A DNA stretch of 64,000 nucleotides from assembly GCF_002572525.1 (NCBI RefSeq), contig NZ_PDBS01000008.1, positions 186,001 to 250,000 on the forward strand, read 5' to 3'. The stretch is from Natrinema sp. CBA1119. GTDB taxonomy: Archaea > Halobacteriota > Halobacteria > Halobacteriales > Natrialbaceae. Positions 27,441 through 46,093 of this stretch are shown piece by piece. Position 1 is the first letter of the stretch, and every line of letters begins with the position of its first letter. The notes below the pieces were generated by a model. It saw only the letters and a list, made by a program, of their open reading frames with translations. It searched no databases and was not told where the DNA came from. The position numbers and the translations under genes are program-made.

Positions 27441-29143
27441 GCCGGGACCTCCCGCGCAGGGAGTATACGGAACTGTTCGGCGCGACCGAGGGCGACCGGC
27501 TTCGGCTGGGCGATACGAACCTGTTCGCGAAGATCGAGACCGACTACGGCGTCCCTGGCGAGGAGGCGGTCTTCGGCGGCGGGAAGACGATGCGCGACGG
27601 GATGGGAATGCAATCCGGCACGACGCAGGCCGAAGGGACCCTCGATTGGGTCTTTACGAACGTCGTGATCATCGATCCCGTGCTGGGCGTCTGCAAAGGC
27701 GACATCGGCGTCCGCAACGGGAAGATCGTCGGCGTCGGAAAGGCGGGCAACCCGGACACGATGGACGGCGTCGACATGGTGATCGGGCAGAGTACCGACA
27801 CCGTCCCCGCCGACGGGCTGATCGCGACGCCCGGCGCGCTGGACATCCACGTTCACTTCAACAGCCCGCAGCTGGTCGACCACGCGCTCGCCTCGGGCGT
27901 GACGACGATGCTCGGCGGCGGCTTCGGGGGCGGTGCGACCACCTGTACGCCCGGTCCGCGGAACATCCAGCGGTTCCTGCAGGCCGCCGAGGACTGGCCC
28001 GTCAACGTCGGCTTCTATGCGAAGGGCAACAGCAGCCGGCCGGAATCGCTCCACGAGCAGGTCGAGGCCGGCGCGTGCGGGATGAAACTCCACGAGGACT
28101 GGGGCTCCACGCCCGCGGCTATCGATACCTGCCTCGAGGTGGCCGACGAGGAGGACGTTCAGGTCTGTATCCACACGGACACGCTGAACGAGTCGGGGTT
28201 CGTCGAGGACACATTCGACGCCATCGACGGCCGCGCGATCCACACGTTCCACATCGAGGGCGCCGGCGGCGGCCACGCGCCCGACGTGCTCGAACTGATC
28301 GGCCACGAGCACATGCTGCCGTCGTCGACGAACCCGTCGATGCCCTACACGGAGAACACGTTCGACGAACACCTCGATATGGTGATGGTCTGTCATCACC
28401 TCAACCCGGACGTCCCCGAGGACGTCGCCTTCGCCGAGTCGCGCATCCGCGCGGAGACGCTCGGCGCGGAGGACGTCCTCCACGACACCGGCGCTATCTC
28501 GATGATGACCACCGATTCGCAGGCGATGGGCCGAATGGCCGAGATGGTGAGCCGAACGTGGCAGACCGCCCACAAGATGAAAGCCCAGCGCGGCCCGCTC
28601 GAGGCCGACGAGGGAACCGACGCGGACAACGCCCGGATCGAGCGCTACGTCGCCAAGTACACGATCAACCCGGCGATCACGGCGGGAATCGACGACTACG
28701 TCGGCTCGCTCGAGCCCGGAAACCTCGCGGACATCGCGCTGTGGGATCCGGCCTTCTTCGGGATCAAGCCGGAAGTCGTTATCAAGGGCGGCTTCCCGGT
28801 CTGGTCCCAGATGGGTGAGGCCAACGGCTCGCTGATGACCTGCGAGCCCGTGATCGGTCGCGAACGCGCCGGCGCACAGGGGCGAGCGAAACACGGCCTC
28901 TCGGTGACGTTCGTCAGCGAGGCCGCCTCCGAGAACGAGGTCGGCGACGCCTACGACCTCAAGACGCCCGTCCGGCCCGTCAGCGGCACGCGATCGGTCC
29001 GAAAATCGGATATGCTGCACAACGATCACTGCCCGGACGACATCGAAATCGACGCGCAGACGTTCGAGGTCCAGGTCGATGGCGAACACGTCACCTGTGA
29101 CCCGGCCGACGACGTCCCGCTGGCACAGCGATACCTGCTCTGA
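27437..29143 (+). CDS. ureC: Urease subunit alpha (catalytic)
   Basis: 568 residues, the usual length of the catalytic subunit. It binds two Ni2+ ions. His138 and His140 are in [10 protein letters not shown], the carbamylated Lys217 in [11 protein letters not shown], further His ligands in [10 protein letters not shown] and [15 protein letters not shown], and the mobile-flap Cys/His in [15 protein letters not shown]. All key residues are intact, so the enzyme should be active. It is cytosolic and assembles with UreA and UreB. It is coupled to ureB; 137 bases separate it from ureA. Confidence 0.98.
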
Positions 29144-29280
29144 ATCATGATCTCCCACACAGCTATCCCACCGATCGCGACGGAATCGAGGAGACGAACA
29201 GTTCGCTCGAGGTCGACCGCCTCGAGGACGCCGCGCTCGAGTCACTCGAACCGACGCCCCGTCCGAACGGAGGTGGACCG
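29144..29280 (+). other. ureC-ureA gap with a coding-like, start-less frame
   Basis: In the ureA frame the gap is fully open, and from about 29161 it reads as typical acidic haloarchaeal protein ([20 protein letters not shown], then further Asp/Glu-rich residues to PNGGGP just before the ureA ATG). No ATG, GTG or TTG occurs in that frame after the ureC stop. An ATG at 29147 in another frame runs 44 codons into the ureA start with an ATGA overlap. Confidence 0.45.
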
Positions 29281-29721
29281 ATGAACCTCTCGCCCAAGGA
29301 GATGGAGCGGCTGACGGTGTTCATGGCCGCCGAACTCGCCCGCCGGCGAAAGGACCGCGGTGTGAAGCTCAACCACCCTGAGACGGTCGCGTACATCTCC
29401 GACTGGGCCTGCGAGGCCGCCCGCGAGGGCAAGTCCGTCGCGCAGATCCGCTCGGAGGCGACCCAGTTACTCACTCGCGAGGACGTCATGGACGGCGTCC
29501 CGGCGATGGTCGACATGATCCAGGTCGAGCCCGTCTTCCCCGACGGAACCAAGCTGGTGACCGTCCACGATCCGATCCGCGCGGACGGCCCAGACCAACT
29601 CGAGACAGTCGATCCGGACCCCGGCGAGGACGTCGTGACCGATCCCGACGCGCTGGGAAGCGACGACTCGAGCGAAGCGCATACCACGGGCGGCGGCCCC
29701 GAACCCACGGAGGGCGACTGA
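29281..29721 (+). CDS. ureA: Urease subunit gamma
   Basis: 146 residues. The first 100 match the gamma subunit ([20 protein letters not shown], then [20 protein letters not shown] and [23 protein letters not shown]-like end). About 45 extra residues follow, very acidic and ending in [10 protein letters not shown]. This tail is a haloarchaeal embellishment not present in bacterial UreA. The sole plausible start is ATG 29281. Its stop shares a base with the ureG start (TGATG). Confidence 0.96.
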
Positions 29722-30341
29722 TGGGGTACCGCGACGTCGCAAAAGTCGGTCTCGGCGGCCCCGTCGGCTCCGGGAAGACGGCGATGGTCCAGCGGATCGT
29801 CCCCGAACTCGTCGACCGGGGCTACGAGGTCGGCGTCATCGCCAACGACATCATGACGCAGGAGGACGCCGACGTCTTTCGGGAGTCGTTCGCCGACCTG
29901 CTACCCGCAGACCTCGTCGAGGGGGTCGAAACGGGGGCCTGCCCACACACGGGCATCCGCGAGGATCCCTCCATGAACCTTGCGGCGATCGACGAGTTCA
30001 CCGAACGTCATCCCGATCTGGATGTGGTCCTCGTCGAGAGCGGCGGCGACAACCTCGCCGCGACCTTCAACCCCGAACTGGCCGACTACTTCCTGTTCGT
30101 CATCAGCGTCGCGGAGGGCGAGGATATTCCCCGCAAGCGCGGCCCTGGCGTCATGCAGGCCGACCTGCTAGTCGTCAACAAAACGGACCTCGCACCGCAC
30201 GTCGACGCCGACCTGCAGGTGATCGAGGACGATACGAACGCGGTGCGGGGCGACGACCCGTTCGTCTTCACTAACTGCAAGGACGGCGAGGGGATCGACG
30301 CGGTCCTCGAGCACGTCGAGCGGGAGGTGCTGTTCGCGTGA
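29721..30341 (+). CDS. ureG: Urease accessory GTPase UreG
   Basis: 206 residues, a SIMIBI-class GTPase that drives nickel delivery to the urease active site with UreD, UreE and UreF. P-loop GGPVGSGKT lies at residues 10-18. The nickel-binding Cys-Pro-His is in [12 protein letters not shown] (around residue 73-78), and the guanine-specificity motif is NKTD (153-156). Start and stop overlap the neighbouring genes, as expected for an operon. Length and motifs are standard. Confidence 0.97.
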
Positions 30342-31309
30342 GTGGGGCGCGCTCGGGGACGACCGCAGACGACGGGCTCCCCCTTCCGCCGTCCTTCGAG
30401 GCCTACGCCGACGAATCGCTCGCGCAGGCGCCCGCTGGCGGCCCCGGGAAGAACGGCCTGCTCGAGGCGACGTTCGCCCGGCGAGACGATGGCCCGACCC
30501 GGTTGATCCGCGACCACGTGACGGTCCCCTACCACCTGACGGGAACGCTCGACACCGATCCGGTGCCCGGGCTGACGACGCTGGTCGCACAGGAGCCGAC
30601 CGGCGGCGTCGCCCAGGGCGACCGCCACCGGATGCGGATCGACGCTCGAGCGGGGGCGCGAGCGCACGTGACGACCCAGAGCGCGACGAAGGTCCACAGC
30701 ATGACCGCGAATTACGCCCACCTGGATACCGCGCTCCGGGCGGCCGAGGGGAGCTACCTCGAGTACGTTCCGGGGCCGACGATCGTCAACGAAGACGCGC
30801 GCTGCCTCCAAACGATCGATGTCGAACTGGCGGACGACGCGGTCGTCGTGGTGGCCGATGTCCTCGTTCCGGACGGGCTGAGCGACCACGAGCCGTTCGG
30901 CTTCGATCACTACCAGTCGCGCGTCGAGGCCGAACACGAGGGGCGATTGGTCTGTGCCGACGCGGTCGATCTGCGGCCGAACGAGCGCGATCCGCGCGAT
31001 CCGGCCAGCGTCGGCGAGTACGGCGTCGTCGGCTCGCTGTACGTCTTCGCACCGAGCGGTGACGATCATGACGACGCGCCCGCGCCCGGCGAGAGCGACC
31101 TCGAGGCGCTGATCGACGGGATCCACGACGAGATCGCGGACCGCGACGGCGTCGAGGCCGGGGTCTCGCGGCTTCCCCACGACGTCGGCGCAGTCGTCCG
31201 TCTCCTCGGCCACCGGGAGGCGGACGTGACCGAGACGCTGCGCGCCGCGTGGGACGCGACGAGACGACAGCTAGTGGGGGTCGGCGTACCCGCCGACCGG
31301 CGATACTGA
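30338..31309 (+). CDS. ureD: Urease accessory protein UreD
   Basis: 323 residues, the scaffold protein that binds apo-urease and, with UreF and UreG, channels nickel to it. Recognisable UreD parts are the early [20 protein letters not shown] region, the [18 protein letters not shown] segment and [11 protein letters not shown]. The GTG start at 30338 overlaps the ureG stop by four bases (GTGA). The C-terminal 70 residues are more divergent and acidic. It ends with a one-base overlap onto ureE. Confidence 0.93.
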
Positions 31310-31962
31310 TGGAACGAATCGACGGTATTGTCGGCAACGTCCACGCCGACGACGACCTCGCGGCGCTGTACGCCGGCCACGAGTCGGCGGGCACGCTCGA
31401 GCGCGTCGTCATCGACGCGGACGACCGCCGGCGGTCGCGGTTCCGGGCGACGACGGACGCGGGCACCGATGTCGGCGTCGTCGTGGACAAGGCCGCGGTC
31501 TCGGCGGGCGACGTGTTGCTGGTCGAGGACGACCGGCTGATCGTCGTCGCGTTCGAACCCCGCGACGCGCTGGTCGTCTCGCTGCCCGACGCGACGGCCG
31601 AGCGGCTCGAGGCGGCGGTCGAACTCGGCCACCGAATCGGCAACCAGCACTGGGATCTCGCGATCGACGACGGGGACGTTTACGTCCCGCTCGAGGCCGA
31701 CCGCCACATCGTCGAGCGGGTCGTCGCCGACGTCGTTCCCGGCTCGGACGTCCGCGAGACGACCGTCGAGGCCGACCTGTTCGTGACCGACCTCGAGGAC
31801 GCGGATCCCGGCGGCGCACGCGGCGTCGATCACGGTTCAGAGCAGGGACACGAGCACGGGCCTGAACACGGTCACGGCCACGGGACCGAGCACGAACACG
31901 GTCACTCCCACGATCACGACCACACACACGACAACCCGCACGAATCCCACCATGACCACTGA
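31309..31962 (+). CDS. ureE: Urease accessory protein UreE with His-rich tail
   Basis: 217 residues, the nickel metallochaperone. The N-terminal half is a beta-rich domain, followed by the ferredoxin-like nickel-binding domain (LGHRIGNQHWDLAIDDGDVY). The last 45 residues contain 17 histidines alternating with Gly, Glu and Asp, a nickel-storage tail. ATG 31309 overlaps the ureD stop by one base; an earlier in-frame GTG at 31249 is rejected because it lies inside ureD. The ureF ATG overlaps its last codons. Confidence 0.95.
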   Translation: MERIDGIVGNVHADDDLAALYAGHESAGTLERVVIDADDRRRSRFRATTDAGTDVGVVVDKAAVSAGDVLLVEDDRLIVVAFEPRDALVVSLPDATAERLEAAVELGHRIGNQHWDLAIDDGDVYVPLEADRHIVERVVADVVPGSDVRETTVEADLFVTDLEDADPGGARGVDHGSEQGHEHGPEHGHGHGTEHEHGHSHDHDHTHDNPHESHHDH

Positions 31963-32725
31963 CCCGAGTCCGTTCCTGACGGCGCTCCGGCTCTCGGATT
32001 CGTTTCTCCCCGTCGGGGGGTACACAGCCTCTTACGGTCTCGAGCAGTACATCAACGAGGATCGGGTCGAGACCGGCGACGATCTGCGGGACCTGCTCGC
32101 GGCCTACCTCCGTCGCGTGGTCGGTCCCTGCGAGACGGTCGCGCTAGCGAACGCTCACGCCGCGTGCGCAGAATCGGATCTCGAGCGGCTGCTGGCCGTC
32201 GACGAGCGACTCCATGCGGTCACCCTGCCCCGAGAGTTCCGCGAGAGTTCGACCAAGGCGGGCGCGAAGCTCTCCGAACTGTTCGGACCGAACGGGGCGG
32301 CGGGCTCGAACGCAGGCGAAGGGCACGGCGACCGGGCCGGAGCCTCCTCCGACGCGACCGAAACGGCGACCGACGGTGGCGATTTCGCAGCGACCGTCGC
32401 CGACGCCATCGATACCGGTTCGACGCCGGGCCACTACCCGGTCGTCTTCGGGGTCGTCACCGCGTCGCGCGGCCTCTCGCGACTCGAGGCCTGTCTCGCA
32501 CACGCGTACTCGTTCGTGTCGGGGCTGCTCGGGGCGGCCCAGCGGCTCGGTCGGTTCGGGCACACCGAGATCCAGTCCGTGCTCGAGCGACTCGAGCCGA
32601 CGATAACGGAGGTCTGCGAGCGCCACGTCGACGACGAGCCGACGGCGATGGCGTCCTTTGCCCCGCTGGCCGAAATAATGGGGATGAACCACGAACGCGC
32701 CGGAAGACGGCTGTTCATGAGCTGA
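31952..32725 (+). CDS. ureF: Urease accessory protein UreF
   Basis: 257 residues, all helical, the partner of UreD and UreG in nickel insertion. The N-terminus (LTALRLSDSFLPVGGYTASYGLEQ) is the UreF signature. A low-complexity Gly/Ala/Asp/Thr insertion (about residues 115-150) interrupts the helical fold and is probably a surface loop. The C-terminus (MASFAPLAEIMGMNHERAGR) is conserved in position. It overlaps the ureE end by 11 bases and closes the operon. Confidence 0.93.
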   Translation: MTTDPSPFLTALRLSDSFLPVGGYTASYGLEQYINEDRVETGDDLRDLLAAYLRRVVGPCETVALANAHAACAESDLERLLAVDERLHAVTLPREFRESSTKAGAKLSELFGPNGAAGSNAGEGHGDRAGASSDATETATDGGDFAATVADAIDTGSTPGHYPVVFGVVTASRGLSRLEACLAHAYSFVSGLLGAAQRLGRFGHTEIQSVLERLEPTITEVCERHVDDEPTAMASFAPLAEIMGMNHERAGRRLFMS

Positions 32726-32833: not shown

Positions 32834-33175
32834 TCACTCGACTCCGATGAGCCGGGGCCCGGAGGCGGATCGATCGCCCGCTCGAAGGACCGAGGCGTCT
32901 CCGAACCGCACGGTATCGCCGGCGGAGCTATCGTCTCCGAGTTGGGCGACGATCGTCACGTCGCCGTCGAACCGCACCATCCCGAGCCGGTTCGGCGAGC
33001 GAACGCCGGGCGGCGTCGCGTGGACAGTCGTCGCGGTGACGACGGTTCCCTCACCGAGCCGGTAGGAGTCGGCCGCCGTCGACCGACACTCCGGGCACCG
33101 GTCGCGCGTGTAATACCAGCGGCTTCCACACGATTCACAGACGAACGCGTGGTCGGTCGGAACGTCTCGAGTCAT
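32834..33175 (-). CDS. DUF35 zinc-ribbon/OB-fold protein
   Basis: 113 residues. The rubredoxin-like zinc ribbon has CESCG and CPECR pairs (residues 13-31). An OB-fold follows, reading TVVTATTVHATPPGVRSPNRL, MVRFDGDVTIVAQL and a short acidic end. Such proteins bind thiolases and carry acyl-CoA intermediates. Its ATG overlaps the stop of the thiolase gene (33172) by four bases, so they form a unit. In known archaeal complexes this type of protein channels acetoacetyl-CoA between thiolase and HMG-CoA synthase, but no HMG-CoA synthase is seen here. Confidence 0.85.
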   Translation of the reverse strand: MTRDVPTDHAFVCESCGSRWYYTRDRCPECRSTAADSYRLGEGTVVTATTVHATPPGVRSPNRLGMVRFDGDVTIVAQLGDDSSAGDTVRFGDASVLRAGDRSASGPRLIGVE

Positions 33176-34317
33176 GGTACTTGCAGGATCGTACAGACCG
33201 CGTTGTTTCCGAATCCGGCGACGTTGAGCGCGAGCCCCGTCCGCGGACTCTCGACGCGTCGCTCCTCGGGGGCGTCGCCGCGCAACTGCCAGGTGAGTTC
33301 GATTATCTGGGCGACGCCGGTCGCGCCGAGGGGATGCCCGCGGGCCTTGAGCCCGCCACCGGGGTTGACCGGCAGCCGTCCGTCGATGGCCGTTTCGCCG
33401 TCCGCCGTCGCCCGCCAGGCGTCGCCGGGGTCGTAGAACCCCAGCTCCTCGAGTTCGAGCAACTCGAGGATCGTGAACGCGTCGTGAATACAGGCGACGT
33501 CGACGTCGTCCTGCATGACGTTCGCGTCGGCTAACGCCTGCTGACCGGCCCGCTCGACGCTCTCGATCTCGAGCGGATTCGGTCGTTCGGCGACCGCGTG
33601 GGTGCCGGTCGCGCCGGTGACGCTCGCGACTCGGATCCCGTCCGTTTCCGGGGTCGTCTCGAGGACGATCGCGGCCGCGCCGTCGCTCGTCGGACAGCAG
33701 TCGTACAGCCGAAGGGGTTCCGCGACGGGCGGCGAGGTTCGCGCCTCCTCGAGCGTGATCGGCTCCTGAAACTGCGCGTACGGATTCGCCGCGGCGTTGC
33801 GGTGGTTCTTGACGGCCACGTGCGCGATCGCCGATGGCTCGATGTCGTACGTCCGCAGGTAGTGCTCGGCCGCGAGTCCCGCAAACGACGGGAGGGTGAC
33901 GCCCTGGGCGTACTCCCGGTCGTGGACGAGACGGCTGATGAGCTCCGTCGCCGCGTCCGTCTCGGCGGCCGTCATCGTCTCGACACCGACGACGAGGGCG
34001 CGCGACGACGCGCCCGCCTCGAGCGCGTGGACGGCGCGAAGGACGGCGCTCGCCCCGCTCGCGCTGGTGTTCTCGATTCGATCCGCGATTGCCCCCTCGA
34101 CGCCGAGCGCACCACAGAGGGCGTTCTCGAGCCCCGTTCGCCCCTCGAACGCCTCGGCCGCCATGTTTCCGACGTGGACGGACGTCACGTCCGCCGGCTC
34201 GACAGCAGCGTCGGAGAGGGCTCGCCACGCTGCTCGCTCGGCTAACTCGAGCGCAGATCCGGCACTCTCGGATTCGAATCGCGTCATTCCGACACCGGTA
34301 ACGAACGCGTCGGTCAT
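33172..34317 (-). CDS. Thiolase-family protein with Ser in place of the nucleophilic Cys
   Basis: 381 residues of the SCP-x/acetyl-CoA acetyltransferase branch. The active-site stretch reads RIENTSASGASAV, so residue 85 is Ser where thiolases have the acyl-accepting Cys. The His motif GHPLGATG is present. The final glycine-rich loop reads LNVAGFGNNAV, and the second catalytic Cys or His is not visible there. It starts at ATG 34317, only 16 bases from the CoA-transferase stop. It may be a lyase- or ligase-like derivative or a non-catalytic scaffold. The family is clear; catalysis is doubtful. Confidence 0.85.
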   Translation of the reverse strand: MTDAFVTGVGMTRFESESAGSALELAERAAWRALSDAAVEPADVTSVHVGNMAAEAFEGRTGLENALCGALGVEGAIADRIENTSASGASAVLRAVHALEAGASSRALVVGVETMTAAETDAATELISRLVHDREYAQGVTLPSFAGLAAEHYLRTYDIEPSAIAHVAVKNHRNAAANPYAQFQEPITLEEARTSPPVAEPLRLYDCCPTSDGAAAIVLETTPETDGIRVASVTGATGTHAVAERPNPLEIESVERAGQQALADANVMQDDVDVACIHDAFTILELLELEELGFYDPGDAWRATADGETAIDGRLPVNPGGGLKARGHPLGATGVAQIIELTWQLRGDAPEERRVESPRTGLALNVAGFGNNAVCTILQVP

Positions 34318-34333: not shown

Positions 34334-35539
34334 TCACTCCGATCCGAACGCGCCGCGCTCGGTGAGGTCGTCCAGTTCCGCTTCGTCGTAGCCGAGGTCC
34401 CGGAAGACGCTCCGGGTGTCCTCGCCCAGTTTCGGCGGCGGCGACTCGAAGCCGCTGCTCGAGCGATCGTACTTCAGCGGGTGCTCGATCACGGGAATCT
34501 CGCCGTGTTCTGGGTGCTCCATCGACGTGACCGATTCGCGGGCCTCCGTCTGCTCGTTGTACAGCGCGTCCTCGACGTCGTGTACCGGACCCGCCGGAAG
34601 CCCCGCCTCGTCGACGAGCAGGGTCATCCATTCGTCGGTCGTCAGCTCGCGAAACGTCCGTTCGAGTTCGGTCTCGAGTTCGGCCATGTGCTCGACGCGG
34701 TCGGCGTTCGTCTCGAAGCGGTCGTCGTCGGCCAGTTCGGGGCGATCGATCGCCTCGCACAGCCCATTCCAGAGCTTCTGATTGAGACAGGCGACGTTGA
34801 GGTAGCCGTCGGCGGTCTCGAACGTCTGGTAGGGGGCGAGCACCGGATCTTTCGTTCCCATACGCGAGGGGGACTCGCCCGCGAACACCTTGCCGGCCTG
34901 TTTCGTCAGCCACGGAAGCGCGGCGTCGAGCATGCCGAGATCGATGGTCTCGCCCTCGCCCGTCCGTTCGCGCCGGTAGAGCGCGTTCGAGATGCCGAAT
35001 GCGGCCCACATCCCGGTGATGAGATCGGTCGTCGGGAGGCCGACTTTCACCGGCCGGCCGTCGGGCTCTCCGGTGACGCTCATCATGCCGCTCATCCCCT
35101 GAATCAGCAGATCGTAGCCGGGCCGTTCGCGCCAGGGCCCCGTCTGTCCGAACGCCGAAATCGCACAGTAAATGATGTCGTCATTGTGCGACCGGATCGT
35201 CTCTTCGTCGACGTCAAGGCGCTCGGCCGTCCCCGGGCGGTAGTTCTGGAGGAAGACGTCGGCCTCGCTCGCGAGGTCGTACAGCGCCTCCCGTCCGGCG
35301 TCGCTCTTGAGGTCGAGTTCGACGCTCTTCTTGCCGTAGTTGACCGTCCAGAAGTACGGCGACTCGCCGTCGATGAACGGCGGTCCCGAGTGGCGATTGT
35401 CGTCGCCGACGCCGGGCCGCTCGACTTTGATTACCTCAGCGCCTTGATTGGCGAGCATCAGCGAGCAGAAGCCGCCGGTAACGAACGTGGTCAGATCGAC
35501 GACTCTCACGCCGTCGAGAATGCGATCACCGGTAGTCAT
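34334..35539 (-). CDS. Family III CoA-transferase (CaiB/BaiF type)
   Basis: 401 residues. It transfers CoA between acyl thioesters and carboxylates. Family signatures are LDGVRVVDLTTFVTGGFC near the start, VNYGKKSVELDLKS, AFGQTGPWRERPGYDLLIQG and the following GMMSVTGEPDGRP. It is in the same direction as, and 16 bases upstream of, the thiolase-like gene, so these may act on the same CoA ester. ATG 35539 is chosen for a typical N-terminus; an in-frame ATG at 35611 would add 24 atypical residues. Confidence 0.92.
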   Translation of the reverse strand: MTTGDRILDGVRVVDLTTFVTGGFCSLMLANQGAEVIKVERPGVGDDNRHSGPPFIDGESPYFWTVNYGKKSVELDLKSDAGREALYDLASEADVFLQNYRPGTAERLDVDEETIRSHNDDIIYCAISAFGQTGPWRERPGYDLLIQGMSGMMSVTGEPDGRPVKVGLPTTDLITGMWAAFGISNALYRRERTGEGETIDLGMLDAALPWLTKQAGKVFAGESPSRMGTKDPVLAPYQTFETADGYLNVACLNQKLWNGLCEAIDRPELADDDRFETNADRVEHMAELETELERTFRELTTDEWMTLLVDEAGLPAGPVHDVEDALYNEQTEARESVTSMEHPEHGEIPVIEHPLKYDRSSSGFESPPPKLGEDTRSVFRDLGYDEAELDDLTERGAFGSE

Positions 35540-35602: not shown

Positions 35603-35667
35603 CTCACTCAAGGCTGTCCGTCGAGATCACACGGCCTCGTCTCACTCGAGGCTGTCCGTCGGAATCA
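35603..35667. repeat. Imperfect 27-bp direct repeat at the moeA 3' end
   Basis: TCACTCAAGGCTGTCCGTCG (from 35603) is repeated as TCACTCGAGGCTGTCCGTCG (from 35641), each followed by rGATCAC-like bases. The second copy encodes the last residues and stop of MoeA (IPTDSLE). The first would encode ISTDSLE and a stop in another frame, so it looks like a duplicated gene end. Confidence 0.75.
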
Positions 35668-36850
35668 CGTCCGCCCGCGCTCCGGCGTCGAGGGGGTCGG
35701 TCGTGAGCACGAAGCCGTCGGCGGTCGCCGCGCGCGTGCTCGAGGAGAGCACGCTGGGATCGAACGTCTCCTCGTACACCGCGAGCGGGGAGTCGACGTG
35801 CCCGAGCGGCGTGGCATCGTCGCCCTCGAGGGTGACCGGAATCGCGTACTCGAAGCCCTCGGGGCCGAGTCCGACATCGTGAGTGATCGTTCGCTCGAGC
35901 GTCGGCGTCGTTCGATCGCCCGTGAACAGCGGGCGAGCCACGAGGGCAGCGCTCACGTACGCCCCGATCGGCTTCCCGGGAATAGCGACGGCCAGGGCGT
36001 CGTGGTCGGGCAACCGAGCGACGGCAATCGGCTTGCCCGGTCGGATCCGAACCCTGTGGAAGACGACGTCGCCGAGGGACTCGAGCGCGTCGATCACGTA
36101 GTCCTTCTTGCCGACGCTCGTCCCGCCGGTGGTCACGACCACGTCGGCCTCGCTCGCGAGCTCGGCGATTCGCCGTTCGACCCGGTCGCCCTCGTCGGGG
36201 ACCGATCCCCGATACGAGGGGGAGTGCCCCCACGACCGCACCAGGTTACAGAGCATCGGCGAATCGAGGTCCGTGTGCCGGCCCTCGTGGATCTCGGTCC
36301 CCGTGGCGAGCACGGCGACCGACAGCGGCGCGGTGACGACGACCGACTCCCGGCCGAGGTCCCGAAGCAAGACGGCGTCGAGCGCGGTGAGCCGATCACC
36401 GGCTATGTAGAGTTGCTCGCCGGCCTCGACGTTCGAGCCGCGCTCGTAGACGTACGTTCCGGTCGCGAGGTCGGGCGTCTGCAGGCGGCCACCGTCGACG
36501 ACCGCGTCCTCGCGCTTGACGACGGTATCGGCCCGGTCGGGAAGCGGTGCCCCCGTGGCGATCTCGATCGCCTGTCCGGCCTCGAGCGCGGGCGGTTTCG
36601 TCTCCGGGAACACCGCGTTCTCGACGATCTCGAGCGGCCCGTCGTCGTCGGCGAACGCGTAGCCGTCCATGGTGGCGCGATCGATCGTCGGCTGGGCCGT
36701 CTCGGCGACTATCGGCTCGGCGAGGCGTTGGCCGGCGATTTCAGCGACTGGAACGGTCGATGTCGCACGATCCTCGAGGAACTCCTCTCGAGCGGCGAGA
36801 ACGTGGTCGACGGCCTCGTGCTGCCAGCACATCTCGTCGTAGTCGTCCAT
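35642..36850 (-). CDS. moeA: Molybdopterin molybdenumtransferase MoeA
   Basis: 402 residues. It inserts molybdate (or tungstate) into molybdopterin to complete the cofactor. Visible parts: TIDRATMDGYAFADDDGP near residue 55, the ATGAPLPDRADTVVKRED loop, the MoCF-type core TGGTSVGKKDYV and the loop AIPGKPIGAYVSA, and a C-terminal beta-barrel. The C-terminal PGKPIGA replaces the usual PGNPVA. The single gene is convergent with no urease partner but lies between two regions that need the cofactor: the Mo hydroxylase (56664-61353) and the AOR-family enzyme (44243). Confidence 0.9.
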   Translation of the reverse strand: MDDYDEMCWQHEAVDHVLAAREEFLEDRATSTVPVAEIAGQRLAEPIVAETAQPTIDRATMDGYAFADDDGPLEIVENAVFPETKPPALEAGQAIEIATGAPLPDRADTVVKREDAVVDGGRLQTPDLATGTYVYERGSNVEAGEQLYIAGDRLTALDAVLLRDLGRESVVVTAPLSVAVLATGTEIHEGRHTDLDSPMLCNLVRSWGHSPSYRGSVPDEGDRVERRIAELASEADVVVTTGGTSVGKKDYVIDALESLGDVVFHRVRIRPGKPIAVARLPDHDALAVAIPGKPIGAYVSAALVARPLFTGDRTTPTLERTITHDVGLGPEGFEYAIPVTLEGDDATPLGHVDSPLAVYEETFDPSVLSSSTRAATADGFVLTTDPLDAGARADVIPTDSLE

Positions 36851-38838: not shown

Positions 38839-40221
38839 ATGGTAGACATACTCATACGAGGGGGGACTGTCGTCACGGCCGCGGACACGTTCGAGGCCGA
38901 TGTCGGAATCACCGGCGAACGCATCGTTGCCGTCGGGGACGGCGACGAGATGAGCGATGCCGAGACGGTCGTCGACGCCACTGACAGACTGGTGCTGCCC
39001 GGCGTGGTCGATCCCCACGTCCACATCGACGACATGTTCTCGTTCGACACCTACGAGAGCGCCTCGAAGGCGGCGGCCCTCGGCGGAACGACCACGTTCA
39101 TCGACTTCGCCTGGCAGGCCTGGGTCGGCGAGACGAGCCTGTGGGACGAGGAGGGGACGCTCCTGGAGGGAATCGAGCGCAAACGCGACAAAGCGGAGAA
39201 CCCGGTCGTCGACTACGGACTCCACGCGGCGATCACTCGAGAAGACGAGGCGGTCTTCGAGGAGTTCGAGGCCGTCGTCGAGGCCGGCGTCCCCACGTTC
39301 AAACTGTTCACCGCCTACGAGTTCGGGTTGACGAACGGGTTCATGGACCGGACGTTCGGTGAACTGGCCGACCACGACGCGGTCGCCGTCTTGCACTCCG
39401 AAGACGCCGCCCTCTGTGATTATCTGGCCGAGCGCTTCCAGGCGGAAGGGAAGGGAGACCCCGAGTGGTATCCACAGTCGCGGCCGGATTACGCGGAAGC
39501 GATGGCCGCCGAGGACGCCGTCCGGATGGCGATGGAGGCTGGCTGTCGGTACTACGGGATCCACACGTCCTGTCGGAAGTCCGCCGAGGTGCTCGCGCAG
39601 TTCCGGGAGGAGTTCGGCGAGGAGATGGTTCGGGCGGAGACGTGTACCCACTACACGACGCTGGACGATTCCATCTTCGCGGAACTGGGGCACCTTCCGA
39701 TGATCGCCCCGCCGATTCGGAAGCCCGACGACAACGAGGCGATGTTCGAGCACCTCGAGCGCGGGACGCTCGACGTCGTCTCGACGGATCACTGCGGGTA
39801 CACGGAAGAGAGCAAACAGGTCGAGAACTGGTGGGACAGCAAGTTCGGCGCGAACGCCCTCCAGACGAGCCTGCCGGTGTTCCACGATGAAGCGGTCAAC
39901 GAGCGCGGCTACTCGTACCCGTTCCTCGTTCGCGCGATGTGTACGAACCCTGCTCGAGTGTTCGGGCTCTCCTCGAAGGGAACGCTCGAACCGGGGACTG
40001 ACGCCGACGTCCTCGTGTTCGATCCCGACGCGTCCGACACCATCGACGCCGCGGACAACGCGAGCGTCGCCGATTTCTCCATCTACGAGGGTCGAGAGGT
40101 GACCGGTCGCGTCGAGAAGACCTTCGTCCGGGGCGAACTCGTGGCCGACGACGGCGAAATCGTCGGGGAGCCCGGGCACGGCCAGTTCGTCGAACGGGAC
40201 CTCCCCGACTGGGAGTTCTGA
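38839..40221 (+). CDS. Dihydropyrimidinase/hydantoinase-type cyclic amidohydrolase
   Basis: 460 residues of the amidohydrolase superfamily, a binuclear zinc barrel that opens cyclic amide or ureide rings. Metal ligands: His60 and His62 (DPHVHIDD), carbamylated Lys155 (TFKLFTAYE), His in VLHSED and GIHTSCR, and Asp317 in STDHCGYT. The motif pattern is nearer dihydropyrimidinase/hydantoinase than allantoinase. It lies next to an NCS2 permease (divergent) and an M20 amidase (convergent) that would act on the N-carbamoyl product. Substrate is not certain: dihydrouracil or a 5-substituted hydantoin are candidates. Confidence 0.85.
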   Translation: MVDILIRGGTVVTAADTFEADVGITGERIVAVGDGDEMSDAETVVDATDRLVLPGVVDPHVHIDDMFSFDTYESASKAAALGGTTTFIDFAWQAWVGETSLWDEEGTLLEGIERKRDKAENPVVDYGLHAAITREDEAVFEEFEAVVEAGVPTFKLFTAYEFGLTNGFMDRTFGELADHDAVAVLHSEDAALCDYLAERFQAEGKGDPEWYPQSRPDYAEAMAAEDAVRMAMEAGCRYYGIHTSCRKSAEVLAQFREEFGEEMVRAETCTHYTTLDDSIFAELGHLPMIAPPIRKPDDNEAMFEHLERGTLDVVSTDHCGYTEESKQVENWWDSKFGANALQTSLPVFHDEAVNERGYSYPFLVRAMCTNPARVFGLSSKGTLEPGTDADVLVFDPDASDTIDAADNASVADFSIYEGREVTGRVEKTFVRGELVADDGEIVGEPGHGQFVERDLPDWEF

Positions 40222-40296
40222 TATCCGCCGGGACCCAAGCCGGTATCGGCCAGCGGCCGTCCGGTATCCGCCCGCGTACCTGGCTATTTTTGTCGA

Positions 40297-41532
40297 CTAC
40301 TCGCCGTTTGCGAGTCGGAACGCCGCGTTGGCGATCGTGTTCGCCGACGAGTAGCAGTCGTCCCAGCTCGTGTACTCCGCTTCGCTGTGGCTCTTGCCGT
40401 CCTCGCTGACCGCGAACACCATGCTGGTATCGCAGACGTCGGTGAGGTGGACGGCGTCGTGGCCGGCGCCGCTGAAGATGCGCATGCTGTCGTAGCCGAG
40501 CTCGTCGGCCGACGCCTGCACGGCGTCGACGCACGTGTCGGCGAAGCGCACGCTGTCCGACTGGTGGCGTTTCTCCCACTCCCACTCGAGCCCCTCTCGC
40601 TCCGCTGCTGCCTCCGCTTCGGCGAGCACCCGATGTTTCGCCTCCTCGACGATATCGTCGGACGGGTCCCGGAACCCGAACGTGAACGTCACCTCCTCGG
40701 GGATGATGTTGATGGAGTTTGGCTGCGCGTCGACGTAGCCGACCGTTCCGACGGTTCGATCGCCCAGCGTGCTCGGGATGCGTCGGACCTGCGTGATTAC
40801 GTCGGCGGCCCCGACGAGCGCGTCATTGCGGAAGTGCATCGGGGTCGGACCCGAGTGGTCCGCCTCGCCGTAGTACGTGATCGCACCCCAGTAGAATCCG
40901 ACGACGCCCGTGACGACGCCGACCTCCTTGCCCTCCAGTTCGAGGTACGGCCCTTGCTCGATATGGAGTTCGAGGTACGCCTCGTACTCCTCCTGGGGTT
41001 CGGCCGGGACGTCGCCACGGTACCCGATCCGTTCGAGTTCGTCGACCAGCAGATCGCCGTTCTCGTCGGTCCGCTCGTACTCCGTCTCGATGTCGTGGGC
41101 TCCGACCCAGACGCCGCTGCCCTGCATCGCCGGCTGAAAGCGCGACCCCTCCTCGTTCGTCCAGTTGACGATCTCTATCGGGTGTTCGGTCTCGATTCCC
41201 TCCTCCTCGAGCGTGCGAAGCAATTCGAGGGGAGCGATCACGCCGAGCGCCCCGTCGTAGATCCCCCCGTACGGCTGGGAGTCGAGGTGCGACCCGATCA
41301 GCACCGGCGCGGCGTCGGGATCCGTGCCCTCGCGACGCCCGAACATATTTCCGAATTCGTCGATTCTGACGTCGAGCCCGAGTTCCTCGAGCTGATCGCG
41401 GAACCAGTCCCGGATCTCCCTGTCCTCGTCGGACAGCGCGAGCCGGTGGAGGCCGCCGTCTTCTGTACCGCCGATCGCCGCCTGTTCTTTCATCGTCTCG
41501 ACGAACCGCTCCCTGTCAATCCCTATCGACAT
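40297..41532 (-). CDS. M20-family N-carbamoyl amidohydrolase (hydantoinase/carbamoylase type)
   Basis: 411 residues. It matches Zn-dependent hydrolases that cleave N-carbamoyl amino acids, beta-ureidopropionate, allantoate or ureidoglycolate. Metal-site motifs are IGSHLDSQPYGGIYDG, NWTNEEGSRFQPAM, ELHIEQGPYLE and a GAGHDAVHLTDV segment near the end. These hold the expected His, Asp and Glu residues. The downstream side of the hydantoinase gene is the natural place for such a partner; the two are convergent. ATG 41532 is preferred over an upstream in-frame ATG at 41625, which would add a non-homologous start. Confidence 0.9.
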   Translation of the reverse strand: MSIGIDRERFVETMKEQAAIGGTEDGGLHRLALSDEDREIRDWFRDQLEELGLDVRIDEFGNMFGRREGTDPDAAPVLIGSHLDSQPYGGIYDGALGVIAPLELLRTLEEEGIETEHPIEIVNWTNEEGSRFQPAMQGSGVWVGAHDIETEYERTDENGDLLVDELERIGYRGDVPAEPQEEYEAYLELHIEQGPYLELEGKEVGVVTGVVGFYWGAITYYGEADHSGPTPMHFRNDALVGAADVITQVRRIPSTLGDRTVGTVGYVDAQPNSINIIPEEVTFTFGFRDPSDDIVEEAKHRVLAEAEAAAEREGLEWEWEKRHQSDSVRFADTCVDAVQASADELGYDSMRIFSGAGHDAVHLTDVCDTSMVFAVSEDGKSHSEAEYTSWDDCYSSANTIANAAFRLANGE

Positions 41533-41695
41533 ACGTTCACGACTATCACGACGCGTATTAGCTCTTGTCCCAATTGCGGTAAAATACTCGAATACTACTC
41601 CCGATTCTTCACGATAATCGGACACATCGATACAATACGTCGGTTTCGTAGCGGTGGAACCAAGCTATATGTAGACGGCGGCTCGTTCGTGGTGT

Positions 41696-42070
41696 ATGCA
41701 CGCCACACATACTGCCGTCACGGTGAGCGACCTCGAGGCGACGACCGATTTCTACGAAGGGGTGCTCGGGCTGGAGTACCAGCGAGAGTTCACGGGAGAT
41801 GACGGCGTCGTCAACTATTACGTCGGAACCGACGACGGCGCTTCTCTCCAGTTCAAGTTCGACCCGACCGCCGACGGGGCCGTCGACCCGTCGGGTATCG
41901 ACCACCTCGCGTTCTCGGTCGAGGACGTCGACGCGACCTTCGAGCGGGTCCTCGAGGAGAGCGGGTGCGATGTCCACCTCGAACCGACGACGTTCGACGC
42001 GGCGAACAGGCGAGCAGCGTTCGTCTACGATCCGGACGGCTACGTCGTCGAGTTCGTTCAGCCGGTCTAA
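41696..42070 (+). CDS. VOC family (glyoxalase-like) protein
   Basis: 124 residues with two beta-alpha-beta-beta-beta modules. The first begins HTAVTVSDLEATTDFYEGVLGL and the second SGIDHLAFSVEDVDATF. The metal ligand positions His and Glu (HTAV, IDHLAF, YVVEFVQP) are conserved. The superfamily includes glyoxalases, dioxygenases and antibiotic-binding proteins. It is divergent from the M20 gene. The chemistry is not predictable from sequence. Confidence 0.88.
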   Translation: MHATHTAVTVSDLEATTDFYEGVLGLEYQREFTGDDGVVNYYVGTDDGASLQFKFDPTADGAVDPSGIDHLAFSVEDVDATFERVLEESGCDVHLEPTTFDAANRRAAFVYDPDGYVVEFVQPV

Positions 42071-42071
42071 G

Positions 42072-42257
42072 TCACGCGGATTCCTCCTCGCTGTCACACA
42101 GCGTCTCTACCTCGCCGTCACACAGTATCTCCACCTCCTTGCCCCGCAGGGAGTCGGTATCCGCGTGCGCCCTCACGATCCGGTCCGCCCGCTCGAGGGT
42201 CCGATTGGGAGTGCGATCCTCGACCCGACCATAACAGTAACGACAGTGACCGCTCAT
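42072..42257 (-). CDS. Candidate small Cys-containing protein
   Basis: 61 codons from ATG 42257. The peptide starts MSGHCRYCYGRVEDRTPNRT, continues charged and acidic, and ends in a tandem VEILCDGEVETLCDSEEE. The CxxC at the start and two Cys near the end could bind a metal. Acidic composition fits haloarchaea. It overlaps a low-complexity repeated DNA segment and starts only nine bases from the divergent PH-like gene. The support is compositional only. Confidence 0.35.
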   Translation of the reverse strand: MSGHCRYCYGRVEDRTPNRTLERADRIVRAHADTDSLRGKEVEILCDGEVETLCDSEEESA

Positions 42258-42266
42258 GCTGTACTC

Positions 42267-42677
42267 GTGACCACTGACAACACGCTCGACGACATCGACG
42301 CCGCTGCCGCGGAGACGTTCGCACTTCGTCGCGGCGACGCGTTCGCGCTCACAGCGGACCACATCTACGTCGCTCGCGGCGATGGAGAACCGATACGTAT
42401 CACCTTCGAGGATGTCGTAGAGGTCGAGTACAACGCCTTCGATTGGTTTCTCGCCGTGCTCAGCGTCGGACTCATCGTGTTCGGCGGGTACTCGACGACG
42501 GAACACGTGCTCGGCGGCGTCGCGTTCGCCGTCATCGGCGTCGTGAGCCTCTTCCTGACGTACCGGAAGCGCGGCAAACTCTCGTTCAAAGTCACCGGTC
42601 GTACGAAGCCACTCACAGTGTTTCCCGAGCGTCCGGACGCCGCCTACGAGGCGCTCCGTCCACATCTGTCGGAGTGA
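42267..42677 (+). CDS. PH-like-domain membrane protein, unknown function
   Basis: 136 residues from GTG 42267 (a GTG at 42246 would add seven). An N-terminal part (GDAFALTADHIYVARGDGEPIR) and DVVEVEYNAFDW have the strand pattern of a small PH-like domain. Two membrane helices follow (FLAVLSVGLIVFGGY and VLGGVAFAVIGVVSLFL). The C-terminal part again forms strands ending LRPHLSE. I do not know the function. Longer in-frame upstream sequence overlaps the VOC gene and is not protein-like, which supports the late start. Confidence 0.65.
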   Translation: MTTDNTLDDIDAAAAETFALRRGDAFALTADHIYVARGDGEPIRITFEDVVEVEYNAFDWFLAVLSVGLIVFGGYSTTEHVLGGVAFAVIGVVSLFLTYRKRGKLSFKVTGRTKPLTVFPERPDAAYEALRPHLSE

Positions 42678-42909
42678 CCCCCATCGCGGGACAGATTCGA
42701 TTCGGACTCGTCTGTCGTCGCGTTTCCGTCGGCGAATCCGGACTCGTCCCGGTGTCCGTTTCCAGTGATCATCGCTCGTCGTCCCCGCTCGATTCGTCGG
42801 CTCGACGCCACTATATAACTGTTCGATAGATATCGAGTATATTGGATACAGATCAATTTAGGGCGATATTATGCCAACAGTTTTCAACTTTTGTTTCGTA
42901 CGTAGTCTC

Positions 42910-44238
42910 ATGGGAGACGAGCTATCATCCCTCAACGACATCGAACAGACCGACAAGCGACACGTCTTCGGCACGTGGTCGTTCCAGAGCGAAGTCAGCC
43001 CGACGCAGGTCGTCGGCGGTGACGGAGCGCGATTTACGACGGCCGACGGCGAGGAGTACATCGACTTCTCCGGACAGCTCATGTGTTCCAATCTCGGCCA
43101 TTCCGCGGACGGCGTCGCGGATGCGATCGCCGAGCAGGCCCGAGAGGGTGCGTACTTCGCGCCCGGCTTCACGACGGAGGCACGCGCCCGACTCGGCGAG
43201 AAACTGGCCGACGTCACACCGGGAGACCTCACCAAAACGTTCTTCTCGACCAGCGGCACCGAGGCAGTGGAGGCCGCGATCAAAATCGCGCGCTTCTACA
43301 CGGGCAAGCAGAAGATCATCTCGCGGTACCGCTCCTACCACGGCGCGACCGCCGGTTCGATCAGCGTCACCGGCGATCCGCGGCGGCTGCCGGCCGAACC
43401 CAGCGTTCCCGGCGCGATCAAAGCGCCCGACCCGTACGCGTACGGCTCGACGCTCGAGCCGATGGAGAGCCTCGAGTACATCGACGAAATGCTCGAACTC
43501 GAGGGCGATACGGTCGCGGCGGTGCTCGTCGAGCCGATCGTCGGCTCGAACGGCATTCTCGTTCCGCCGGACGAGTACCTCCCCGAACTGAAGCGAATCG
43601 CCCACGATCACGGCGCGTTACTCATCTGTGACGAAGTGATGTCCGGATTCGGCCGCACCGGCGAGTGGTTCGGCAGCGACGTCTTCGACGTCACTCCCGA
43701 CATCATGACGATGGCGAAGGGCCTCACCGGCGCGTACGCGCCCCTCGGCGCGACGATCGTCACGCCGGAAATCGCCGACTACTTCGAGGACGAGATGTTC
43801 TGTCACGGCCACACCTACGCGGGTCATCCCGTCGCCTGTGCGGCCGGACTCGCCGCCGTCGAGACCTACGAGGAGGAGAACCTCATCGAGCGCGCGAGCG
43901 AGGTCGGCGACGTCCTCGGCGAGCGACTCGCGGAACTCGCCGCGGATCATCCGAGCGTCGGCGAGGCGCGCGGCGTCGGGCTCTTCCGCGGTCTCGAACT
44001 CACCCGGTCGGCCGACGAGCGCGTCCCGTTCGGGGAGCGATCGGACAAGATCTCGACGGGGACGACGGTCGTGGACGAAGTGGCGGCCCGCGCCCGCGAT
44101 CACGGCGTCTACGTCGCGAACATGATCAACACGCTCATCATCGCGCCGCCGCTGGTACTGACGGAAGCGGACCTCGACCGAGGTATCGAAGCGTTAGACG
44201 CCGCGCTCGAGTACTCGGACGCCCAGATGGAGGGTTGA
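42910..44238 (+). CDS. Class III PLP-dependent aminotransferase
   Basis: 442 residues of the omega-amino acid:pyruvate / acetylornithine group. PLP features: TFFSTSGTEAVEAAIKIAR, SRYRSYHGATAGS, the ALLICDEVMSGFGRTGEWF segment with the PLP-pairing Asp, and the lysine that forms the Schiff base in MTMAKGLTGAYAPLG. Likely partners are beta-alanine, taurine or similar amines. ATG 42910 follows an AT-rich promoter region; an upstream ATG at 42871 would add 13 hydrophobic residues atypical of the family. The tungstoenzyme gene follows four bases after its stop, so an aldehyde product may be passed to it. Confidence 0.92.
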   Translation: MGDELSSLNDIEQTDKRHVFGTWSFQSEVSPTQVVGGDGARFTTADGEEYIDFSGQLMCSNLGHSADGVADAIAEQAREGAYFAPGFTTEARARLGEKLADVTPGDLTKTFFSTSGTEAVEAAIKIARFYTGKQKIISRYRSYHGATAGSISVTGDPRRLPAEPSVPGAIKAPDPYAYGSTLEPMESLEYIDEMLELEGDTVAAVLVEPIVGSNGILVPPDEYLPELKRIAHDHGALLICDEVMSGFGRTGEWFGSDVFDVTPDIMTMAKGLTGAYAPLGATIVTPEIADYFEDEMFCHGHTYAGHPVACAAGLAAVETYEEENLIERASEVGDVLGERLAELAADHPSVGEARGVGLFRGLELTRSADERVPFGERSDKISTGTTVVDEVAARARDHGVYVANMINTLIIAPPLVLTEADLDRGIEALDAALEYSDAQMEG

Positions 44239-44242
44239 ACGG

Positions 44243-46093
44243 ATGAGCGACCTCCCGCCGGCGTACGGCGGTGAAATCCTCCACGTCGACCTCGAGAGCG
44301 GTGAGAGCGAGCGCGAGGAACTCGCGCCCGAGGACGCGCGCCTGTTCCTCGGCGGGAACGGCCTCGCCGTCAAGCTCGTCGCCGAACACGTCCCCGCGTC
44401 TGCCGACGCGTTCGATTCGGAGAACGTCGTCGTCTTCGCGGTCGGACCGATGAACGCCACGCCGTTCCAGAGCACGAGCCGCGGCGTCGTCGGGTTCGTC
44501 AGCCCGATGACCGACGGGTTCTTCGACAGCACGTTCGGCGGGACGTTCCCGCGGGCCCAGAAGACGACGGGATTCGACGCGATCGCGTTACACGGCGCGG
44601 CCGACGACCTCTCGTACGTCACCATTACGGCGGACGGCGCGACCGTCGAACCCGCCGCCGATATGGCCGGCCTGGACACGTACGAGACCTGCGAGCGGGT
44701 ACGCGAACGCGAGGACGTCGGCTACGACACGCACGTCATCGCCGCCGGCCCGGCCGGTGAGAACCGAGTGCGCTACGCCTGCCTGTTGCACGAGTCGAAA
44801 CGGCGCGAAGGCGTCGCCGGTCGGGGCGGCAGCGGGGCGGTTCTCGGCTCGAAGAACGTGAAAGCCGTCGCCGTCCGGGAGGGCGACTTCGAGCCCGAAC
44901 TCGCTGCACCCGATCAGCTCCGGACGCTCGCCACCCAGCGGATGAAACCGCTGATGGAGGGGACCGAGATGCTGCAGGACTACGGGACCAGCGGCCTCGT
45001 CAACCCGGTCAACGAGACGGGAAAGCTCGGCCAGCGCAACAACCAAACCGAGCGGACGTCCCGGGAGAACGCGGAGGCGATCAGCGGCGAACGGCTCCAC
45101 GAAGAGTTCGTCACCGAGGACACCACGTGCGCCAACTGCGCGGTCGCCTGCGGGAAACACGTCGCGGTCCAGTCGGAGGGGATCACCGAGGCGAAGATTC
45201 CGGAGTTCGAGAGCCTGTTCGGGACCGCGACGATGCAGGAGGTGTACGACATCAAGCGCGTGATGAAAGCGAACGACCTCTGTGACCGGCTGGGGATGGA
45301 CACCATCAGCTGGGGCGTGACCGTCGCGTTCGCGCGGGAGTGCTACGAGGAGGGGCTGCTGTCCGCGGACGCCTCACCGCACCTCGAGTTCGGCGACGCC
45401 GACGGTCTCGTGGAACTCGCCGAGGAGACCGCGCGACGCGACGGAATCGGGGATCGGCTCGCGGCGGGTTCGTTCCGATTCGCCGACTCGCTGGACGACG
45501 CGGCGGAACGGTACCTGCACGGGGCGAAGGGGCTGGAGTTCGCAGCCCACTCGCCGCGGGGTCTCAAGGGGATGTCGATCGGATACGCGACCGCGACTCG
45601 AGGCGGGTCACACCACGACACGCGTCCGACGCTCCAGTATCAGGGAGAACACGACGAAACGACGGACGGGACCGCCGAGTTCGCCGCTCGCTCGCAGCAC
45701 TTCACCGCCGTCGGCGACTCGCTGACCCAGTGTCGGTTCGTCAGCGAGGGCGGGTGGGGCGAACGACTGAACGAGCGCTACAGCGATGCGGTGAACGCCG
45801 CGACCGGCTGGGACCTCGACCCGGCCGAACTCGAACGGATCGGCGAGCGCATCTACAACCTGGAGCGACTCGTCAACGTCCAGCGCGGAATCGCCAGCCG
45901 TGCGGACGACACGCTCCCCTACCGCGTCATGCACGAGGCGATCCCAGACGGACCGTCGGCCGGAATGTTCTGTCCGCCGTCGGAACTCGAGGCGATGCTG
46001 GACGAGTACTACGCGTTCCGCGGCTGGGACGACGACGGCGTTCCGACCGACGAGACGCTCGAGCGACTCGAGCTCACCCCGTTCGCGAACTGA
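44243..46093 (+). CDS. Aldehyde:ferredoxin oxidoreductase-family tungstoenzyme
   Basis: 616 residues. It should bind a bis-pterin tungsten cofactor and one [4Fe-4S] cluster. Cluster ligands are Cys296, Cys299 and Cys303 (TTCANCAVACGKH) and Cys497 (LTQCRF). The pterin-binding motifs GRGGSGAVLGSKNVKA and LCDRLGMDTISWG are present. Family members oxidise aldehydes to acids with ferredoxin. The gene begins four bases after an aminotransferase stop, so the two are probably co-translated. A plausible reaction is oxidation of a semialdehyde from the aminotransferase. Confidence 0.92.
   Translation: MSDLPPAYGGEILHVDLESGESEREELAPEDARLFLGGNGLAVKLVAEHVPASADAFDSENVVVFAVGPMNATPFQSTSRGVVGFVSPMTDGFFDSTFGGTFPRAQKTTGFDAIALHGAADDLSYVTITADGATVEPAADMAGLDTYETCERVREREDVGYDTHVIAAGPAGENRVRYACLLHESKRREGVAGRGGSGAVLGSKNVKAVAVREGDFEPELAAPDQLRTLATQRMKPLMEGTEMLQDYGTSGLVNPVNETGKLGQRNNQTERTSRENAEAISGERLHEEFVTEDTTCANCAVACGKHVAVQSEGITEAKIPEFESLFGTATMQEVYDIKRVMKANDLCDRLGMDTISWGVTVAFARECYEEGLLSADASPHLEFGDADGLVELAEETARRDGIGDRLAAGSFRFADSLDDAAERYLHGAKGLEFAAHSPRGLKGMSIGYATATRGGSHHDTRPTLQYQGEHDETTDGTAEFAARSQHFTAVGDSLTQCRFVSEGGWGERLNERYSDAVNAATGWDLDPAELERIGERIYNLERLVNVQRGIASRADDTLPYRVMHEAIPDGPSAGMFCPPSELEAMLDEYYAFRGWDDDGVPTDETLERLELTPFAN

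Follow-up and report, generated by a model that had tools for sequence, protein, structure and literature searches.

We found that a 64,000-nucleotide stretch of the Natrinema sp. CBA1119 genome (hereafter, the window) encodes a thiolase-fold protein whose clade has strong support and is distinct from that of the BktB/PhaA-type ketothiolases. In this protein both canonical cysteines of SCP2-type and archaeal acetoacetyl-CoA thiolases (the nucleophile and the Cys of the HDCF motif) are replaced, by Ser85 and Ala280. It is probably (we put the chance at roughly 0.6) the active, catalytic alpha subunit of a haloarchaeal-type thiolase that has two subunits and a Ser-His-His site; a DUF35 protein would be the obligatory beta subunit and a family III CoA-transferase would supply the CoA ester. 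What is new is that the protein has a clade of its own and an operon that includes a CoA-transferase; the Ser trait itself was already known from haloarchaeal ketothiolases.

The thiolase gene (33172..34317, minus strand) is an ORF that is intact along its whole length and encodes 381 amino acids with matches to Thiolase_N (6e-42) and Thiolase_C_1 (5.4e-42); the orthologue in N. zhouii is 93% identical. AlphaFold2 predicted a confident thiolase fold (mean pLDDT 91.9, pTM 0.93). The Cys-to-Ser exchange on which the original prediction rested was confirmed: Ser85, encoded by AGC (34063..34065, minus strand) within the motif ENTSASGAS, aligns in a phmmer alignment with the catalytic Cys of the Methanothermococcus thermolithotrophicus thiolase (PDB: 6ESQ), which is Cys85 (PMC6392133, excerpt). 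In SCP2-type thiolases the second Cys sits in an HDCF motif (PMC12329534, excerpt), and the alignment rows show HDAF at this site of the window protein (His278-Asp279-Ala280, 33478..33486, minus strand), so that the second Cys is lost too. Both histidines are kept, His278 of HDxF and His328 of the GHP motif in ARGHPLG (33334..33336, minus strand). The same rows place a GFGNN loop at residues 368-372 (33202..33216, minus strand), where the BktB/PhaA-type clade has GFGNC; an N with a Gly-rich stretch after it is also usual in Cys-bearing relatives, but the GFGN spelling is restricted to Cys-less proteins. The original prediction had read the absence of a second Cys or His from this C-terminal loop (LNVAGFGNNAV). 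It was right that both cysteines are lost, but the place was wrong, as this subfamily keeps that Cys in HDCF, and both histidines are present; the C-terminal loop was therefore rejected as the site of the second Cys.

Three tightly spaced genes on the minus strand follow each other in the order CoA-transferase, thiolase, and DUF35. The DUF35/OB-fold gene (32834..33175) overlaps the stop of the thiolase gene by 4 bp, which bears out the predicted pairing, and encodes a 113-aa protein with zinc-ribbon cysteines (CxxC...CxxC) that matches PF01796 (1.2e-9) and 6esq_E (E 0.0012). It is a free protein, with PF01796 and a zinc-finger match below the cut-off as its only matches. The family III CoA-transferase (34334..35539, 401 aa from the likely ATG; PF02515 at 7.2e-127 on the longer ORF) lies upstream on the same strand and ends 16 bp before the thiolase gene, closer than had been claimed. 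Profile-close relatives of the CoA-transferase act on dicarboxylates, namely succinate/glutarate, oxalate, and mesaconate. The titles and abstract openings that our literature search returned hold no description of a trio of CoA-transferase, Ser-thiolase, and DUF35 protein.

Conservation was assessed in 201 non-redundant homologues, every one found by similarity to the query; for per-protein counts, sequences identical over the aligned columns or with <320 aligned residues were taken out. The original prediction had proposed an alignment of haloarchaeal thiolases at the Ser position. In our alignment Ser85 is invariant: the clade of the window protein has it in 46/46 members, far more than chance would give and always with an AGY codon, and the haloarchaeal sister clade (BktB/PhaA-type) has it in 34/34. 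The sister clade uses both codon families (17 TCN and 17 AGY), which argues that selection keeps the serine itself. His278 and His328 are likewise present in all 46 and all 34 proteins, as are GFGN, His132, and His240, and HDAF is found in all 46 members of the window clade. The GHP histidine is also present in 77 of the 81 proteins of the Cys group, and in that group Phe369, His132, and His240 are each outside the four commonest residues of their columns. The two cysteines disappear together: HDCF occurs in 73 of 80 Cys-bearing proteins and in 0 of 89 Ser-bearing ones, which read HDA or HDM instead.

Pro occupies the nucleophile column in 27 of the 201 homologues, all with HDAF, and wherever their origin could be told these come from Asgard loci or searches, except one (L179) from the window's own phylum. 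Asgard homologues with up to 47% identity (L022-L033 and L213-L231, mostly Asgard loci) read NGPASGG or TGPSSG and keep HDAF, GHP, and GFGN, with neither Cys nor Ser. The remaining homologues have Thr (1), Ala (1), Gly (2), or a gap (1) in this column. Three further thiolase-fold ORFs of the genome that holds the window, L008 (G000:C1:3584965-3585990), L009 (1200946-1201653), and L010 (3606625-3607710), have YDSF or YDCF in place of HDCF, and the two that span the nucleophile column (L008 and L010) have Gly there, as has been described for aldolase-like proteins of the Sal/TbSLP group. A divergent thiolase-like protein of Natrinema gelatinilyticum (L013, minus strand, ORF from position 2534 of that strand) reads RVEACAAAGAL, with a Cys one residue early, and HDAF.

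In a tree of 89 of the 201 homologues, built with the active-site columns blanked, the window clade is supported at 100/99 and the sister haloarchaeal clade at 100/100, while the proximity of these two Ser clades is supported at only 92/85. A branch with 98/95 support sets all 30 Cys-bearing proteins and one long-branched Ser protein (L085) apart from the rest; the placement of L008, L010, L013, and L085 is unreliable owing to their long branches. Some match with an E value up to 1e-75 exists in 272 of 292 genomes of the class Halobacteria, and the window clade (matches of at least 55% identity) in 42 of them; the sampled loci of the 45-51% identity class all belong to the sister clade by motif.

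Gene order, as counted from profile searches, separates the two haloarchaeal clades. The DUF35 gene lies directly downstream in 46/46 members of the window clade and 33/34 of the sister clade; the corresponding values for the Cys group (11/79) and the Asgard group (5/26) are lower bounds, given that the DUF35 queries were haloarchaeal. A family III CoA-transferase lies directly upstream in 29/46 members of the window clade versus 0/34 of the sister clade, and within 6 kb at 29/33 versus 0/19 loci, which suggests that the window clade works with its own CoA-transferase. Nine Ser- or Thr-bearing homologues from the crenarchaeal and Asgard searches had no CoA-transferase upstream. For the locus-level counts (the 6-kb search and the neighbourhood contents below) nothing was taken out, and the loci are not independent, as some belong to closely related species and some pairs represent one and the same stretch of a genome (e.g., L012/L091 and L034/L097).

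The wider neighbourhood varies by lineage. Across 34 loci of the window clade it includes IclR regulators (14), FAH hydrolases (10), NCS2 permeases (9), MoeA (8), PRK08204-type amidohydrolases (6), and TPP enzymes (6), and we found no conserved beta-oxidation set beside the operon at the loci examined. In the window, the MoeA cluster is represented by a moeA-like gene upstream of the trio (35642..36850, minus strand; named after the products in the records of N. zhouii and Halostagnicola larsenii). Beyond it lies a block (38839..46093) encoding a dihydropyrimidinase-like protein (38839-40221, plus strand), an M20 carbamoylase (40297-41529, minus strand), a class III aminotransferase (42871-44238, plus strand), and a member of the aldehyde ferredoxin oxidoreductase family (44243-46093, plus strand); the same kinds of genes lie beside the trio in H. 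larsenii. The first three occur together at 3/34 loci, which are the window, L121, and H. larsenii (L123/L233). The region 36921-63921 is a nucleobase island, with two NCS2/xanthine permeases, a permease and a deaminase for cytosine, two dihydropyrimidinase-like proteins, the carbamoylase, the aldehyde ferredoxin oxidoreductase, and molybdenum hydroxylase subunits. On the other side, a complete-looking urease gene set (27054-32725, plus strand; names from the N. zhouii record) is convergent with the thiolase operon. Co-occurrence of the carbamoylase family TIGR01879 was dropped as a functional hint, since it is too common in haloarchaea (hand-counted in 32/42 genomes with the window clade and 163/250 without).

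Excerpts of two reviews (PMC7137286 and PMC9049629) describe BktB and PhaA of Haloferax mediterranei as PHBV beta-ketothiolases composed of an alpha and a beta subunit, with Ser-His-His as the catalytic residues of alpha and an OB domain in beta whose deletion abolishes PHA synthesis; they disagree on which of the two enzymes makes which product. BktB corresponds to HFX_6004/6003 and PhaA to HFX_1023/1022, and CRISPRi of both lowered PHBV from 2.32 to 0.58 g/L (PMC8387396, excerpt). A clade of active thiolases with Ser, which the original prediction had named as a finding that would speak against it, is thus already in print for the sister clade (PMC7137286 and PMC9049629, excerpts), and by our analysis Ser at the nucleophile position is a family trait already described for haloarchaeal ketothiolases. 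The best match to the query on pHME505 (L180, 97865-99375) is 47.5% identical, agrees with it in the Ser and in HDxF, GHP, and GFGN, and was placed in the sister clade by its motifs, outside the tree. A DUF35/OB-fold gene (PF01796 just under the cut-off) overlaps it by 4 bp downstream, followed by SagB and orc1. Judging by the gene numbers, this pair is likely HFX_6004/6003 (BktB alpha and beta), as the thiolase gene is the fourth counted from orc1. The pair is annotated just as "3-ketoacyl-CoA thiolase" and "hypothetical protein". Some sister-clade loci have PHA genes, seen as a five-member protein cluster whose representative matches PhaC_N. The window genome also has a PhaC_N match, and PHA synthesis in it is possible, with a BktB/PhaA-type paralogue (G000:C1:74552-75688) as a nearer candidate for this role than the window thiolase.

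The window protein has the features of a Ser-His-His ketothiolase, namely the Ser, two His (which we take to be those of HDxF and GHP), and a downstream OB-fold gene, and by homology its clade would share both the Ser-His-His catalysis and the need for an OB-fold subunit. In the proposed reaction, the family III CoA-transferase would make the CoA ester used by the thiolase, Ser85 would accept the acyl group instead of Cys, His328 and His278 would serve as the base and the oxyanion/acid groups, and the complex would cleave or form a 3-oxoacyl-CoA. The substrate would be an organic acid, possibly a 3-oxo acid or a dicarboxylate, that the CoA-transferase has activated. The invariant Ser85, His278, and His328, the reported Ser-His-His catalysis of BktB and PhaA, the adjacency of the DUF35 and CoA-transferase genes, and a structural similarity to 6ESQ that exceeds that to the aldolases Ltp2 and Sal support this reading. 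Three observations count against it. In 27 homologues, almost all of them from Asgard archaea, Pro stands in the nucleophile column while HDAF and GHP are kept, which implies that a nucleophile at position 85 is dispensable somewhere in the Cys-less group. The Cys of HDCF, which usually acts as acid/base in the second half-reaction, is also absent, and the loci examined have no conserved beta-oxidation set beside the operon. The first two would allow a chemistry that proceeds without an acyl-enzyme.

Such chemistry is at the centre of two other readings. We consider it rather unlikely that the protein decarboxylates CoA esters, either simply or in a decarboxylative condensation, as a final step of pyrimidine/beta-alanine breakdown. 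In this reading the CoA-transferase would make malonyl-CoA or methylmalonyl-CoA, which the Cys-less His-His fold would then decarboxylate. The genes beside the trio in the window and in H. larsenii fit this idea, as such a set could yield beta-alanine, malonate semialdehyde, and malonate, and so do the dicarboxylate-using relatives of the CoA-transferase and the two retained histidines. The thiolase-like TbSLP, whose complex with malonyl-CoA has been solved, is reported to decarboxylate malonyl-CoA, though with a kcat of 0.005 per s, but the aldolase Sal does not (PMC12329534, excerpt). However, the three defining neighbours occur together at only three loci, with other members of the clade beside FAH hydrolases, IclR regulators, and TPP enzymes, and the carbamoylase counts are uninformative. 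A search for malonyl-CoA decarboxylase (PF05292) gave 0/59, but the search control likewise had no match, so that the zero does not establish absence. A retro-aldolase that splits 3-hydroxyacyl-CoA, the lyase alternative of the original prediction, is improbable. Ltp2 and Sal are indeed Cys-modified thiolase folds with a DUF35 partner, and the Asgard Pro would suit acyl-enzyme-free chemistry, but their base is the Tyr of YDxF where all members of the window clade have the His of HDAF, the 113-aa DUF35 protein is free of any MaoC hydratase fusion, and both aldolases are more distant by fold than the thiolases.

The loss of both thiolase cysteines could also point to a catalytically dead protein that serves the DUF35 protein or the CoA-transferase as a scaffold. 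This is very unlikely: Ser85, His278, His328, and GFGN are invariant across the window clade, and the sister enzymes are reported to be active with Ser-His-His, and the BktB-like alpha subunit has the same Ser, His, and DUF35 partner, which makes an active two-subunit thiolase the default. The original prediction was therefore right about the lost Cys and the pairing with DUF35 and the CoA-transferase, and its suggestion that the loss implies a scaffold or a lyase is weakened. AGC is one base away from TGC (Cys), but a sequencing error or a pseudogene can be dismissed for practical purposes, given Ser in all members of the clade from many independent genomes, an open frame, and the closely similar N. 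zhouii orthologue.

An active Ser-His-His thiolase would mean that a "lost-cysteine thiolase" is here no sign of a dead enzyme. The Cys-to-Ser exchange is coupled to the loss of the HDCF Cys across a broad archaeal group, and this Cys-less group is a clean system for learning how catalysis on a thiolase fold proceeds when cysteine is absent. With its three genes the operon is a tractable module, which the annotations "3-ketoacyl-CoA thiolase" or "acetyl-CoA acetyltransferase" conceal. More speculatively, and with the odds well against it, the Cys-less GFGN thiolases (with Ser in the haloarchaeal and some crenarchaeal members and Pro in those of Asgard archaea) might form a large archaeal group that performs C-C chemistry on CoA esters without an acyl-cysteine, and the CoA-transferase and Ser enzyme might here be a malonate/methylmalonate-activating, decarboxylating module that ends pyrimidine catabolism in haloarchaea.

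Among known systems, the nearest solved fold is the archaeal acetoacetyl-CoA thiolase 6ESQ (Z 61.2, rmsd 1.4, 379 aligned residues), followed by 7YVY (57.5), SCP2 thiolases (57), and ST0096 (4YZO, 55.3), with Ltp2 (48.6) and Sal (48.0) further away. The thiolase of the thiolase/HMGS/DUF35 complex (6ESQ/6ET9) shares its fold and DUF35 partner with the window protein, but uses Cys85 and is complexed with HMG-CoA synthase. The thiolase-like ST0096 of Sulfolobus tokodaii, the best phmmer match in the PDB, has the same Cys-to-Ser exchange (NTSGSG) and an AGYGN loop similar to AGFGN, but has HDMA instead of HDAF and belongs to another group. The aldolases Ltp2-ChsH2(DUF35) and Sal-Shy(DUF35) also combine a thiolase fold that does not use the thiolase-type nucleophilic Cys with a DUF35 partner; they differ in the YDxF Tyr, reported as the aldolase base (PMC12329534, excerpt), in the hydratase-fused DUF35, and, for Sal, in a Gly at the Cys column, and these aldolase marks (YDxF and a DUF35 fused to a MaoC-type hydratase) are absent from the window system. 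PhlABC-type acyltransferases use Cys88 as the nucleophile, and their thiolase and DUF35 genes are accompanied by one for a PhlA-type third subunit (PMC6392133, excerpt); this type was ruled out by the Ser at the Cys column and by the CoA-transferase and DUF35 neighbours.

BbsB and BbsA profiles match the window proteins at low scores, far under the cut-off. Benzoylsuccinyl-CoA thiolase BbsAB combines a thiolase with a DUF35 subunit and belongs to a pathway that also includes a family III CoA-transferase and a full beta-oxidation set. The closest parallel is with BktB/PhaA, for which the abstract of Hou et al. 2013 reportedly contrasts Ser-His-His with Cys-His-Cys. Judged on the pHME505 protein and its clade, the two systems share a thiolase-fold alpha subunit with Ser, the HDxF His, and the GHP His, in which both SCP2-type cysteines are gone, and an OB-fold/DUF35 beta gene that overlaps downstream. 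They differ in that the window protein belongs to a separate clade (about 47% identity), has Asn83, Ala280, and Asn372 where the BktB/PhaA type has Gln, Met, and Cys, and comes from a clade with a family III CoA-transferase upstream, the examined loci of which do not lie beside PHA genes.
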